Source: Luteibacter aegosomaticola
Lineage (GTDB): Bacteria; Pseudomonadota; Gammaproteobacteria; Xanthomonadales; Rhodanobacteraceae
DNA length: 64,000 nt
Reading direction: 5' to 3'
Assembly (NCBI RefSeq): GCF_023078475.1
Contig: NZ_CP095741.1
Coordinates: 3,658,001-3,722,000 of the forward strand
The notes below the pieces were generated by a model. It had not been told where the DNA came from. It was given only the letters and a program-made list of their open reading frames with translations, and did not search any database. Both the position numbers and the translations under genes were made by a program. Shown piece by piece: positions 7,951 through 20,413 of this stretch (position 1 is the stretch's first letter; every line of letters starts with the position of its first letter).

Positions 7951-9342
7951 TCAGTGCGGGCCGGCGGGTAGCACCAGGGTCACGCGCAGGCCGCCACCAT
8001 CGCGGTTGGCCAGGGCGATGCGGCCCCCGTGAGCCTCAGAAATTTCGCGGGCGAGGGCCAGACCAAGGCCCGTGCCCGAGCGCTTGGTGGAATAGAACGG
8101 TAGCAGCGCCTGGGCCAGCACCGTCTCGCTCATGCCCGGCCCCCGGTCGGAAACATCGATCAGGCAATCGCGGCCAACCACATGGACGCCCAGTGACACT
8201 TCCTCTTCGTCGCCACCGGCTTCGTGCGCATTTTTGATCAGGTTGATCAGCACCTGCTCGATCTGGGTCGGATCGAACCAGCCGGGATGCTCGGGCGGCG
8301 GCGCGCTCAGCTTGAAGCGGGCATGCAGGCCCAGTGCCTCGAGAAACGGCGCCCAGGCGACTTCGCGCGTCTGCGGCGCCGGCAGCTTGGCGAAGCTCGC
8401 ATAACCCGAGATGAAGCCATGCAGGTGCTTGGCGCGATCGCCGATCGACGCGAACACCCCGGGCAGGCGTGCCAGGTCGCCACGGCGTGCCAGCTCGGCA
8501 CCCGAGTGCGACAACGATGAAATCGGCGCGAGCGAGTTGTTGAGCTCATGGCTGATGACGCGGATGACGCGTTTCCAGGTGTGCACTTCCTGGCGTGACA
8601 ATTCGCGGGTCATCCGACGGTACAGCTGCAAGCGATGCGGGCGCCCCTGCAAGCGGAAGCCACGCTGCGAAAGATGGAAGGTTTCCTCGCTGCCCTCCAT
8701 TTCCACGGTGAACAGCGCATCCTCGCCCGCGGCGGCGGCCGTGCGCAGATTCTCTGGCATGGTGGCCAGCACGGTCGCGAAATCCAGCCCTGCCAGCGCC
8801 CTGCCCTCGTTGAACAGGTGGCGTGCGGCGATGTTCGCGTACGTGACCTTGCCCGAGGCGTCGGTCAGGACAAGCGCGACTGGCGTGTTCTGCACCACCG
8901 TATCGAGCAACAACTCTCGCTGGGCGAGGTGCTGCCGCTGGTCGCGCAGGATCGTGCCGAGCTGGTTGTGCATGCGGATCAGGTCACCCAGCTCGTCCAT
9001 GCGGTCGGTACCGATCGACATGCTGTAGTCGCCATCGCGATAGCTCGCCACGGCGCTCTCCAGCGCGCGCATCAGCCGCCGGATGGGCTCGACGAGCACG
9101 TGGGCCATCCACGCTGAAAGCGGTACGAGCAGGAGCAGGCAGATGATGAGCGCCGTGCGCATATCCAACGGCTGCGGCGTGCCCGGGACGACGGGGTGGC
9201 CCGGGTGTTTGCCGAGTTCATCCAGCCACGCCATGGCCTGCGGGAATGGCCAGATCGCGATACCCGCGAACACGAGCGCTCCCACGACCGCCGAGGCGCC
9301 GACGACAAGGGCCATCCGACCTTCCAGCGAGAAGCGCTTCAT
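7951..9342 (-). CDS. NtrY-like sensor histidine kinase
   Basis: A 463-residue membrane kinase. Two transmembrane helices (about 10-30 and 62-83) bracket a very short periplasmic loop of about 30 residues, so it probably senses within the membrane or cytoplasm. A HAMP domain (84-140) and a PAS domain (145-240) follow. The phospho-acceptor motif is ISHELNNSLAP with His265, and the ATPase boxes are NLIKNAHEA, DRGPGM and GTGLGLAL. HELNNSLAPI is typical of NtrY relatives. The ATG at 9342 is used; the longer frame overlaps the regulator gene. It lies 13 bases after the sigma-54 regulator gene and ends the ABC operon, so it presumably controls that operon. Confidence 0.92.
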   Translation of the reverse strand: MKRFSLEGRMALVVGASAVVGALVFAGIAIWPFPQAMAWLDELGKHPGHPVVPGTPQPLDMRTALIICLLLLVPLSAWMAHVLVEPIRRLMRALESAVASYRDGDYSMSIGTDRMDELGDLIRMHNQLGTILRDQRQHLAQRELLLDTVVQNTPVALVLTDASGKVTYANIAARHLFNEGRALAGLDFATVLATMPENLRTAAAAGEDALFTVEMEGSEETFHLSQRGFRLQGRPHRLQLYRRMTRELSRQEVHTWKRVIRVISHELNNSLAPISSLSHSGAELARRGDLARLPGVFASIGDRAKHLHGFISGYASFAKLPAPQTREVAWAPFLEALGLHARFKLSAPPPEHPGWFDPTQIEQVLINLIKNAHEAGGDEEEVSLGVHVVGRDCLIDVSDRGPGMSETVLAQALLPFYSTKRSGTGLGLALAREISEAHGGRIALANRDGGGLRVTLVLPAGPH

Positions 9343-9355
9343 GGGTGCGAACGTA

Positions 9356-10690
9356 TCAGACCGCGAGCCCGTAGCGCTCCATCCGCCGGTACAGCGCCTG
9401 GCGCGATAGGCCCAGGCTGTTGGCGGCACGGCTGATCACGCCACCGGCCGTCGCCAGCGCGGCCTCGACCGATTCGCGGCTGGGCTCGTCCAGATTCCGG
9501 TTGGTGGCCGCCGTAGGCACGGGCAGGTTGAGGTGCGAGGGCTCGATGCGCCCGCCCGCGGCTAGCAGCGCCGCGCGCGCCATAGCGTTTTTGAGCTCGC
9601 GCACGTTGCCGGGCCACGCATGGGCGAGCAGCGCCTCGCGCGAGTCCTCGCTCAGTTCGGCCTGGCCATCGAGGAAGAACTCGGCCAGCGGGAGGATATC
9701 GTCCGTGCGCTCAGCCAGCGGCGGCAGGTTCACGTCAATGACGTTGAGCCGGTAGTAGAGGTCTTCACGGAAGGTGCCGGCGGCGATCATCGCTTTCAGG
9801 TCGGCATTGGTTGCGCTGACGACACGCACCTTAACCTGGCGGGTGCGGCCCGAACCCAGGCGCTCGAACTGGCCGGTTTCCAGCACGCGGAGCAGCTTCA
9901 TCTGCCCGGGCAGCGGCAGGTTGCCGATCTCGTCGAGGAACAGCGTGCCGCCATCGGCGAGCTCGAAGCGGCCTTCGCGGGCCTTGTTGGCGCCGGTGTA
10001 AGCGCCGGCATCGGCCCCGAATAGCTCGGCTTCGATCAGTTCGCCCGGCAAGGCACCACAATTGACGGCCACGAAAGGCCCACGGCGCACCGGTGAATTG
10101 GCGTGCACGATGGCGGCAATGCGCTCCTTGCCGGCGCCGTTCGGGCCGGTGATGAGCACGGGCACGTCGGAACGCGCCACCTGGCAGGCCAGTTCCACCG
10201 TGCGGCTCATGGCCTCGGAGGCGAACACGAGGCCGTCGAGGTCGTATTTGCTTTCCAGTGCTTCGCGGCGGCGGCGGCGCTCGTTGCGCGCACGCGTGAC
10301 CTCGCGGGTGGTTTCGGACAACTCGAGCAGGTTCTCCACCGTCGCGAGTAGCTTGGTGTCGTCCCACGGCTTGGCGAGATAGTCGGCCGCACCGGCCTTC
10401 ACCAGTTCCACGGCCGCCTCCAGGTGTGTCCACGCGGTGAGCAGGATCACCGGGAGGTCGGTGTAGCGACCTCGGATCGCCTTGAACAGCGCCGCGCCCT
10501 CCTCGCCCGACGTGGTGTCGGCGGTGAAGTTCATGTCCTGGATGACCACATCGACCCGCTCGCGGGCGAGCGTGGCCAAGCCATCCTCAGGGGTAAGCGC
10601 CACCAGCGGGCGGATATCGCGCAGGCTGAGCGCAAGCGACAGCGCCTCGCCCACGGCGGGGTTGTCATCGATGATCAGTACGCAGCGCAT
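9356..10690 (-). CDS. Sigma-54-dependent response regulator (NtrC family)
   Basis: A 444-residue regulator. The receiver domain is at 1-120, with acidic D8/D9, phospho-acceptor D52, T85 and K108. The AAA+ domain is at about 150-385: Walker A GPNGAGKE (182-189), the sigma-54 contact loop as GAYTGA (229-234) rather than GAFTGA, and Walker [11 protein letters not shown] Fis-type helix-turn-helix ends the protein ([19 protein letters not shown]). The ATG at 10690 follows AAGGA at five bases. It is encoded 60 bases after the last permease gene, and a consensus sigma-54 promoter precedes the first gene of the operon, so autoregulation of the whole efflux operon by this protein is likely. Confidence 0.95.
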
Positions 10691-19108: not shown

Positions 19109-19141
19109 GTCGGTTCCCTCGTGGATAAGTGGTTTGAACGG

Positions 19142-20413
19142 TCAGCGGGCGATGGCGACGTGCTTGGCGTCACCGAAGGTGTCGGCACCGGAGATGACGA
19201 TCTTGTCACCCTCCTTCAGGCCGTCCAGGATTTCGACCTTGTCGATGCTGCTGGCACCGACACGGATATCACGGCGATCGGCCATGCCGTCGTTGACGAC
19301 ATAAGCGTAGCGGCCAGCGCTTTCATCGACGAACGAGCCACGCTGCACGGTGAGCACGTTTTCGCGGTGATCGAGCAGGATGCGCACGGACAGGCGCTGG
19401 CTCTGGCGCAGCTGCTGCGGCGACTGGCCATCGAAGCGCAGGCGGGCTGCAACCTCGCCATTCACCACTTCGGGCGAGATGGCGCTGACCTTGCCCTTCC
19501 ATTCCTTGCCGTTGCCGGTGATCTCGCCGGGCATGCCGATGGCGAGGTCACGAGCAAAACTCTCAGGCACCTTCATCTCGACTTCGAGCGCGGTCAGGTC
19601 GATGACGCTGACCAGCTGCGCGTCCTTGGCCACCGTGGCGCGCTCGGCGATGAAGAGCTGGCCGACTTGGCCGTCGACCGGCGATTTAACGTTGAGATCA
19701 TCGACCTGGCGCTGCAGGTCTTTTACCAGCAAGACCTGGCGATCGTGCGCGAGCTTCTTGGCCTGGATATCGAAGGTCAGGCTATCGTTGTCGATCGTCA
19801 GATCGGATTGCGCGTGCTTCTGTGTAATCGCTGCCTTGTCGAGTGCGGACTTCGCCTTGTCGACGTCAGTGTTCGAGACCGCGCCCTTGTCGAACGCACC
19901 CTGATAACGGTTGAGGTCGCGCGCGGCGGCGGTCTGGTCGACCACGGCGCTGTCGTAAGCCTTTTGCAACTCCGAGCGCTTCTTGCGGGCATCGACCTGC
20001 GCGCGCAGGTATTCGACTTCCATGGCATCGGCCGCCGACTGTTCCTGCGCGAGCTTGTTGGTGAGCTCCGGGCTGGTAACGACCGCGAGCACCTGGCCTT
20101 TCTTCACCACATCGCCGGCATGCACCTGCATGACCACGGCACCGCCGTAAGGCGCATACATGGTGGGGCTGACCGCAGCGACAACCTTGCCTTCGGCGGC
20201 GATATCGCGAACGAAGGGCCCACGGGTCACGGTGCCGAACGAGAGGCGTGAAGCACTGACCGACGTGTCCGCGGAGAACATCGTCGCAATCTTCGGAATG
20301 GAGAAACCAATGGCCACCAGCACCGCCAGCGCGCCACCGGCGATGATCAGCTTGCGGTAGCGGTTGGGGGCGACCGCGACAAGGCGGTCCTGGGCGGAGG
20401 TGTCTCGGATCAT
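19142..20413 (-). CDS. Periplasmic adaptor (membrane fusion) protein of the HlyD/MacA type
   Basis: A 423-residue adaptor with a cytoplasmic N-terminus, one membrane helix (21-39), a biotinyl-lipoyl-like half (YAPYGGAVVMQVHAGDVVKKGQVL), a long alpha-helical hairpin (about 120-240), the second lipoyl half (LNVKSPVDGQVGQLF), then beta-barrel and membrane-proximal domains. Such adaptors bridge inner-membrane ABC permeases to a TolC-like outer-membrane channel. No TolC gene is nearby, so a distant one must be used. It is the first gene of the efflux operon. An AGGGA site precedes the ATG, and the sigma-54 promoter lies about 35 bases upstream of the start codon. Confidence 0.93.
   Translation of the reverse strand: MIRDTSAQDRLVAVAPNRYRKLIIAGGALAVLVAIGFSIPKIATMFSADTSVSASRLSFGTVTRGPFVRDIAAEGKVVAAVSPTMYAPYGGAVVMQVHAGDVVKKGQVLAVVTSPELTNKLAQEQSAADAMEVEYLRAQVDARKKRSELQKAYDSAVVDQTAAARDLNRYQGAFDKGAVSNTDVDKAKSALDKAAITQKHAQSDLTIDNDSLTFDIQAKKLAHDRQVLLVKDLQRQVDDLNVKSPVDGQVGQLFIAERATVAKDAQLVSVIDLTALEVEMKVPESFARDLAIGMPGEITGNGKEWKGKVSAISPEVVNGEVAARLRFDGQSPQQLRQSQRLSVRILLDHRENVLTVQRGSFVDESAGRYAYVVNDGMADRRDIRVGASSIDKVEILDGLKEGDKIVISGADTFGDAKHVAIAR

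Follow-up and report, generated by a model that had tools for sequence, protein, structure and literature searches.

In the usual description of ABC exporters, one motor works one gate; a locus of Luteibacter aegosomaticola raises the question whether a single ATPase, together with a single periplasmic adaptor, can serve several permeases. The stretch of DNA analysed, referred to as the window, comprises 64,000 nucleotides (contig NZ_CP095741.1, positions 3,658,001 to 3,722,000), and coordinates of the locus are positions within it. A sequence-only reading had described an adaptor and one ABC ATPase followed by six FtsX-type permeases in the order A-B-A-B-A-B, which is borne out by reading frames, domains and coordinates: ten genes, all on the minus strand and all with open frames, lie in the order given below. 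We consider it likely, on comparative grounds, that they encode a MacAB-TolC-like exporter in which interchangeable A-B dimers draw on the same ATPase and adaptor within a single regulon.

19142..20413, minus strand: periplasmic adaptor (membrane fusion protein), 423 amino acids (aa), above the RND_mfp cut-off
18392..19108, minus strand: ABC ATPase of the MacB/LolD/DarD class, 238 aa
17055..18371, minus strand: permease A1, corresponding to the first half of an ADOP/DarB-type permease, 438 aa, or 435 from the ATG at 18362
15822..17042, minus strand: permease B1, second half of such a permease, 406 aa
14487..15800, minus strand: permease A2, 437 aa, or 436
13267..14487, minus strand: permease B2, 406 aa
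11967..13277, minus strand: permease A3, 436 aa
10751..11965, minus strand: permease B3, 404 aa
9356..10705, minus strand: NtrC-type response regulator, with matches to receiver, sigma-54 activator and Fis-type helix-turn-helix domains, 449 aa
7951..9429, minus strand: sensor histidine kinase with PAS and HATPase_c domains, 492 aa, or 463 from the ATG at 9342

The pairs are as tightly packed as had been supposed, with intergenic gaps of 12, -1 and 1 base within pairs, and of 24 and -11 bases between them. The NtrC-like character of the regulator stands on its three domains; it precedes the kinase, reversing the order originally given. The description of the kinase as NtrY-like was not upheld: PAS and HATPase_c domains were found, and NtrY was not among the 25 of 70 NCBIfam models listed, the best of which, under its cut-off, was AtoS.

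Split double permeases

All six permeases match PF12704 (MacB periplasmic core) and PF02687 (FtsX) above cut-off. On the 803-residue ADOP model of NCBIfam (TIGR03434) the A proteins cover positions 5-401 and the B proteins 410-801, at 159-194 bits per half against a curated cut-off of 622; since A thus corresponds to the first half of this model and B to the second, an A-B pair can be viewed as a split double permease. The all-against-all alignment that had been suggested gave identities of 40-56% among A proteins (40% between A1 and A3) and 41-57% among B proteins, with A-to-B matches of about 23-52% over shorter stretches. For single-chain structure models of A1 and B1 (pLDDT 90.9 and 92.6, respectively), the best match among solved folds was in both cases MacB of Acinetobacter baumannii, LolCDE and YbbAP also being among the matches.

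Comparison with three close Luteibacter genomes yielded dN/dS values of 0.06-0.26 for the six permeases, dS being near saturation in some comparisons, and of 0.02-0.05 for the ATPase. Together with the conserved gene order in relatives, the permease values argue that the array reflects neither chance nor decay. Decay of the permeases is contradicted by this range, and a chance or mis-called pattern of open reading frames (ORFs) is ruled out by domains, models and conservation. In 17 of 18 comparisons with these three relatives, amino-acid change was faster in the periplasmic part than in the membrane part, A1 being nearly equal in two relatives.

Fused forms were encountered as well. Elsewhere in the same genome (L001:7320-13204) lie an ATPase 50% identical to that of the array, a 793-aa fused ADOP-like permease, an NtrC-type regulator and a kinase, with no adaptor seen in the stretch. 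Two relatives carry rows of long open frames that weakly match the B profile and are probably fused double permeases, nine in G019 (C1:376663-408811) and six in G146 (C2:269000-284932); these frames span 812-899 aa, and the split-pair array of both genomes has one pair only.

A conserved, expandable array

Within the family, 218 of 233 genomes have the adaptor (E ≤ 1e-40), and in a sample of 398 genomes from across the order it was found in 286 (E ≤ 1e-50). We read 79 array loci of the family, comprising our own and those of 78 relatives, and reached the regulator in 72; the remaining seven show no regulator within the stretch read. With pair number taken as whichever of the A and B counts is lower, these 72 loci hold one pair (20 loci), two (10), three (8), four (13), five (6), six (6), seven (5), eight (3) or nine (1), and two or more are present in 52. 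Each of the 72 has one adaptor gene and one ATPase gene, the latter split across two frames in G206. Sixteen named loci (L041-L056) were excluded from the counts because ten end before the regulator and because they duplicate genomes already included. Second, more distant adaptor loci in G229 and G224 (L133 and L134, respectively) were excluded from array and promoter counts; they have no sigma-54 match above 16.5.

Among the 17 Luteibacter genomes read, three have one pair, nine have two (including G114, counted as such despite a split B gene) and five have three. Pair types recur in similar order across genera, and most multi-pair arrays start with the cluster of pair 1. Outside the family, 44 adaptor-bearing genomes were chosen, of which 34 have one B permease at E ≤ 1e-60 and ten have 2-6, with tandem spacing in G319, G383, G244, G475, G280 and G371. 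The layout recurs in four loci read there, each with one clear pair; an extra weak B match is present in one of them, and one is cut before the kinase. The locus is a conserved, expandable array, for which a single-pair ancestor and repeated expansion would be the simplest reading. Single-pair relatives combined with decaying copies had been named beforehand as an outcome that would undermine the idea of a multi-specific system; the first part does occur, in 20 of 72 loci, and the second is absent by dN/dS.

A relative of DUF885 proteins is encoded in the array loci of 24 of the 78 relatives (Pfam was checked for L073:2561-4969), and sits between the last B gene and the regulator where examined. 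In the G206 locus (L102), nine permease pairs follow the broken ATPase gene, which could reflect an assembly error or a real loss.

Partnered gates and a shortage of motors

The relationship of A to B was assessed in 291 pairs, 263 beside an adaptor and 28 located elsewhere (stray pairs); only pairs in which both partners were present and at least 350 aa long were used, and these include the one pair of L133. The A and B distance matrices correlate at 0.916, as against a mean of 0.13 and a maximum of 0.19 in 200 shuffles of partners within genomes. A and B co-evolve strictly as partners.

Gates and motors were counted in 27 selected genomes, 22 with the adaptor and five without, the latter being the adaptor-less genomes of the family that are at least 90% complete. 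The 22 contain 112 B permeases at E ≤ 1e-60 (79 in arrays and 33 elsewhere, by hand count; 1-12 per genome) and 25 ATPase matches at E ≤ 1e-80, one in each of 19 genomes and two rows each in G000, G141 and G206. At the same thresholds the five adaptor-less genomes have neither a B permease nor such an ATPase, one of them (G013) showing a weak B match at 3e-31. Two Luteibacter genomes with three pairs (G110 and G103) have a single ATPase at this threshold, and so does the Dyella-group genome G070 with its 12 B permeases. The idea that pairs 2 and 3 have ATPases of their own was dropped accordingly, as relatives with many pairs hold a single array-class ATPase; nor was any other ATPase of the genome tied to these two pairs, a tie that the sequence-only reading had named as refuting its proposal. 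The L. aegosomaticola genome contains six further pairs, one of them (at L009) beside a second ATPase 74% identical to that of the array, and the other five with no ATPase of the array class within the fetched stretch. Overall, no array-class ATPase adjoins 27 of the 28 stray pairs read.

In MacB-type permeases the coupling region faces the ATPase. The mean identity of this region to the array consensus is 0.69 (A) and 0.78 (B) in stray pairs, compared with 0.20-0.43 in controls, namely four other FtsX-type permeases of the genome that each lie beside their own ATPase (one, a fused double permease, was scored half by half). Between stray and array pairs, identity in the ATPase-facing region is 0.61 (A) and 0.72 (B), as against 0.40 and 0.32 in the periplasmic part. 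The strict pairing, the imbalance of motors and gates, the conserved ATPase face and the fast-changing periplasmic part together favor a shared motor with diversified periplasmic chambers. The earlier proposal that the pairs would share one ATPase and adaptor is well supported on comparative grounds, by the one to nine pairs per ATPase and adaptor, the co-evolution of A with B, the conservation of ATPase-facing parts and the presence of one promoter.

A putative sigma-54 regulon

Upstream of the adaptor gene lie three further elements:

20447..20462, minus strand: sigma-54 promoter TGGCACG-N4-TTGCT, which precedes the adaptor start by 49 bases
20519..20530, no strand assigned: TGTCCGCGGACA, putative site of the NtrC-type regulator, single copy in the window against a chance mean of 0.02
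20533..20542, no strand assigned: TGTCCGGACA, second, shorter copy of the regulator-site motif, read directly from the sequence

The sigma-54 consensus is TGGCACG-N4-TTGC. A promoter scoring at least 18 is present upstream of the adaptor in all 79 arrays, as against 2 of 300 random 350-base stretches, and the exact palindrome TGTCCGCGGACA occurs in 65 of the 79 upstream regions, most often (39 of 65) at 68 or 78 bases upstream of the promoter, spacings about one helical turn apart. Eight exact copies are found in the L. aegosomaticola genome, compared with none of the reversed control, and every one of them is followed by a sigma-54 promoter 47-80 bases away. Besides the array, their targets comprise four microprotein genes (L178-L181), a TolC-family gene (L177) and two stray pairs (L003 and L007). 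The domains of the regulator and the promoters at all of these sites are what would be expected of an NtrC-family sigma-54 regulator, which would presumably itself bind the palindrome. Across the 27 genomes the palindrome occurs 77 times, versus 4 for the reversed control (hand sum), and a promoter scoring at least 17.5 lies within 300 bases in 19 of 20 further motif loci, five of them from L. aegosomaticola. By the same score, 13 of 28 stray pairs have palindrome and promoter (12 exact, one with a mismatch), so that membership of every stray pair in the regulon is rejected; both features occur together in 29 of 3000 random segments, a control that overstates the background because the segments came from loci many of which hold real sites.

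L177 and L100 both scored above the cut-off of the TolC subfamily model. The TolC gene lies behind palindrome and promoter in L. aegosomaticola and in G110; in G015 one gene intervenes, and in G070 the motif is about 0.8 kb from TolC, without a promoter match. TolC-like genes are also present in 7 of the 78 relatives' array loci, and in the g13, g23 and g26 loci the TolC gene is within the array (Pfam was checked for one). In relatives the motif also precedes some hydrolase-like or DUF922 genes (L185, L196, and L190, where the gene stands behind a microprotein gene). The kinase has no sizeable periplasmic sensor domain; its two hydrophobic segments start at residues 12 and 66 (numbering from the ATG at 9342) and are separated by about 35 residues.

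The microproteins found at the motif number 15, of which 14 were aligned (27-73 residues, mostly starting MK(F/Y/H/T)E). The three tested have one hydrophobic segment, and some carry a two-cysteine tail ending CALPPDGIVCP or similar. Three of the genes behind regulator motif and sigma-54 promoter are the following:

L178:5311-5520, strand not stated: microprotein gene
L179:5518-5649, strand not stated: microprotein gene
L181:5311-5442, strand not stated: microprotein gene

A fifth microprotein gene of L. aegosomaticola adjoins a one-mismatch palindrome, and the longer form of the microprotein is encoded in several genomes upstream of a gene resembling what we take to be trmL. Two representatives had no match in Pfam or NCBIfam, and are unannotated in that sense. 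A profile built from 13 of the 15 was run against the 35,641 small ORFs in the fetched loci, and the same 15 were the only clear hits. Microproteins were found in 15 of 22 array genomes (E < 1e-6) and in one of five array-less genomes (G017), which rejects the notion that they always accompany the array. They could be transporter subunits, feedback regulators of the kinase or exported cargo.

Proposed mechanism and its alternatives

In the scheme we propose, the locus would encode a tripartite ABC exporter built like MacAB-TolC, except that MacB would be divided into a separate ATPase and an A/B half-permease heterodimer, the latter taking the place of the MacB homodimer. The single ATPase and adaptor would serve alternative A-B dimers, the three of the array and probably scattered pairs too. 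In these dimers the parts facing the ATPase are conserved, and diversification affects the periplasmic parts, through which MacB contacts substrate and adaptor. Acting through sigma-54 promoters with TGTCCGCGGACA, the kinase-regulator pair would activate the array together with some of the stray pairs, several single-span microproteins and a TolC-family channel. Transport would presumably be outward, with a different substrate for each pair, and a peptide-like cargo is weakly suggested by hydrolase- or peptidase-like genes that some relatives carry within the operon or have under the motif. The exchange of stray-pair dimers on the ATPase-adaptor-TolC frame is proposed with rather less confidence than the core arrangement. 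A still broader version, in which one ATPase, adaptor and TolC are shared by an ordered and growing set of heterodimers from the array and scattered sites, within one sigma-54 regulon that also makes the microproteins as subunits, feedback regulators or cargo, has in our estimation slightly less than an even chance of being correct.

Several observations weigh against this scheme. The second ATPase at L009 adjoins a stray pair, genes for unrelated ABC-type ATPases (49-62 bits) lie about 1-5 kb from three others (L007, L157 and L170), and more distant ATPases (50% identity or less) may be partners of pairs. The similarity of coupling regions partly reflects common ancestry, and the lowest score of an array A protein, 0.43, equals that of the highest control. 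Regarding the regulon, the exact palindrome is absent from 14 of 79 array upstream regions and from the whole genomes of G019, G028 and G146, which have the array; four of the five array-less genomes have one copy each; with one mismatch allowed, copies in L. aegosomaticola number 22 versus 13 for the reversed control; and 15 of 28 stray pairs, including four of the six in L. aegosomaticola, lack palindrome and promoter.

With 55 ATPase matches in the genome, among them the one beside the L009 pair and the 50% identical one beside a fused double permease, it is conceivable that the operon ATPase drives the first pair only, and that later and stray pairs use other ATPases. We consider this unlikely, given the single array-class ATPase of G110, G103 and G070 and the coupling regions, which are alike in pairs 1-3 and unlike those of permeases with their own ATPases. 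Extra and stray pairs might also act without any ATPase, as sensors, receptors or decoys for the regulatory system rather than as pumps. Five of the six further pairs have no array-class ATPase nearby, and the lack of a sizeable sensor domain in the kinase makes it conceivable that its cue is detected by partner membrane proteins, as in BceAB-BceS; against this quite improbable account stand the conserved ATPase-facing region of stray pairs and the failure to find such pairs in genomes without the ATPase (five of five).

A role in handling lipids or lipoproteins, with extraction of the LolCDE or YbbAP kind in place of export of soluble or peptide cargo via TolC, is suggested by the combination of heterodimeric FtsX-type permeases with a separate ATPase, as in LolCDE, and by the fold matches to both systems. 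Nevertheless, every array read has an adaptor gene, several genomes have TolC genes within the array or following the motif, the Lol models are under cut-off and MacB is the best fold match, making this role unlikely. Least credible, and already contradicted, is the notion that extra pairs are redundant recent duplicates, maintained for dosage or decaying. Broken copies do occur in relatives (a split B in G114, a split A in G148 and a stray B with a stop in G070), and array length varies from one to three pairs within Luteibacter; the pairs are nonetheless old, judging by the divergence of A1 from A3, with similar type order across genera and constrained dN/dS. A defense role is likewise unsupported, since PADLOC, applied to the adaptor, ATPase, A1, B1 and regulator, matched only the ATPase and regulator, to models sharing common domains.

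Other features of the window

An inverted repeat GTAGGAGCGCGC...GCGCGCTCCTAC resembling a REP element occupies 20577-20642; its core is present twice more, at 21622 and 54230. Near the operon, at 21656-33940 and 40874-43225, lie genes whose translations, inspected by eye, resemble a large pilus-type chemotaxis cluster and PilT/PilU-like ATPases.

Relation to known systems

The array shares with MacAB-TolC the FtsX/MacB_PCD permease fold, the ATPase class, a periplasmic adaptor and a candidate TolC partner. MacB, however, joins ATPase and permease in one polypeptide that forms a homodimer, whereas the array has a separate 238-aa ATPase, two co-evolving permease types and, apparently, several heterodimers per ATPase and adaptor. 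The adaptor exceeds the RND_mfp subfamily cut-off (126 versus 94.9) and falls short of the MacA equivalog (53.5 bits versus 342); the genome yields four other matches, all of them weak (none better than E 2e-6). ADOP permeases, whose acronym includes "orphan" and implies no ATPase gene beside the permease, resemble the A-B pairs in their two halves, and 27 of 28 stray pairs share with them the lack of an adjoining ATPase (of the array class); the array form differs in being encoded as two polypeptides, under the curated cut-off, with its own ATPase and adaptor. The darobactin exporter DarB-DarC-DarD supplies the best NCBIfam model for the ATPase (DarD, 253 versus a cut-off of 375) and is among the adaptor matches (DarC, 79 versus 450), both far under cut-off, and DarB consists of a single long permease. 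Inspection by eye of the ORFs of the window recognized no peptide-biosynthesis genes, no further search having been aimed at them. LolCDE and YbbAP have the same ATPase class and FtsX-type permeases, LolC and LolE forming a heterodimer, but neither system is known to have an adaptor or TolC, and the LolD (216 versus 308) and LolC/E (19-29 versus 362, where matched) models are under cut-off. Membership in the MacAB, ADOP, Dar or Lol systems fails on the features tested, although a mode of working like that of MacAB-TolC is still the preferred reading; we view the array as a MacAB-TolC variant assembled from split permeases of the ADOP type. Sharing of one motor by many permeases is known from importers of unrelated fold, the group II ECF transporters and those using MsmK.

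With one to nine pairs accompanying one motor, these arrays offer a natural system for asking whether exporters share an ATPase. The array ATPase provides a concrete candidate for the motor of permeases that occur without one and, if this proves true, would be the motor of "orphan" double permeases. The palindromic motif in turn defines a small, clean regulon that ties TolC and the microprotein family to this machine as candidate parts.

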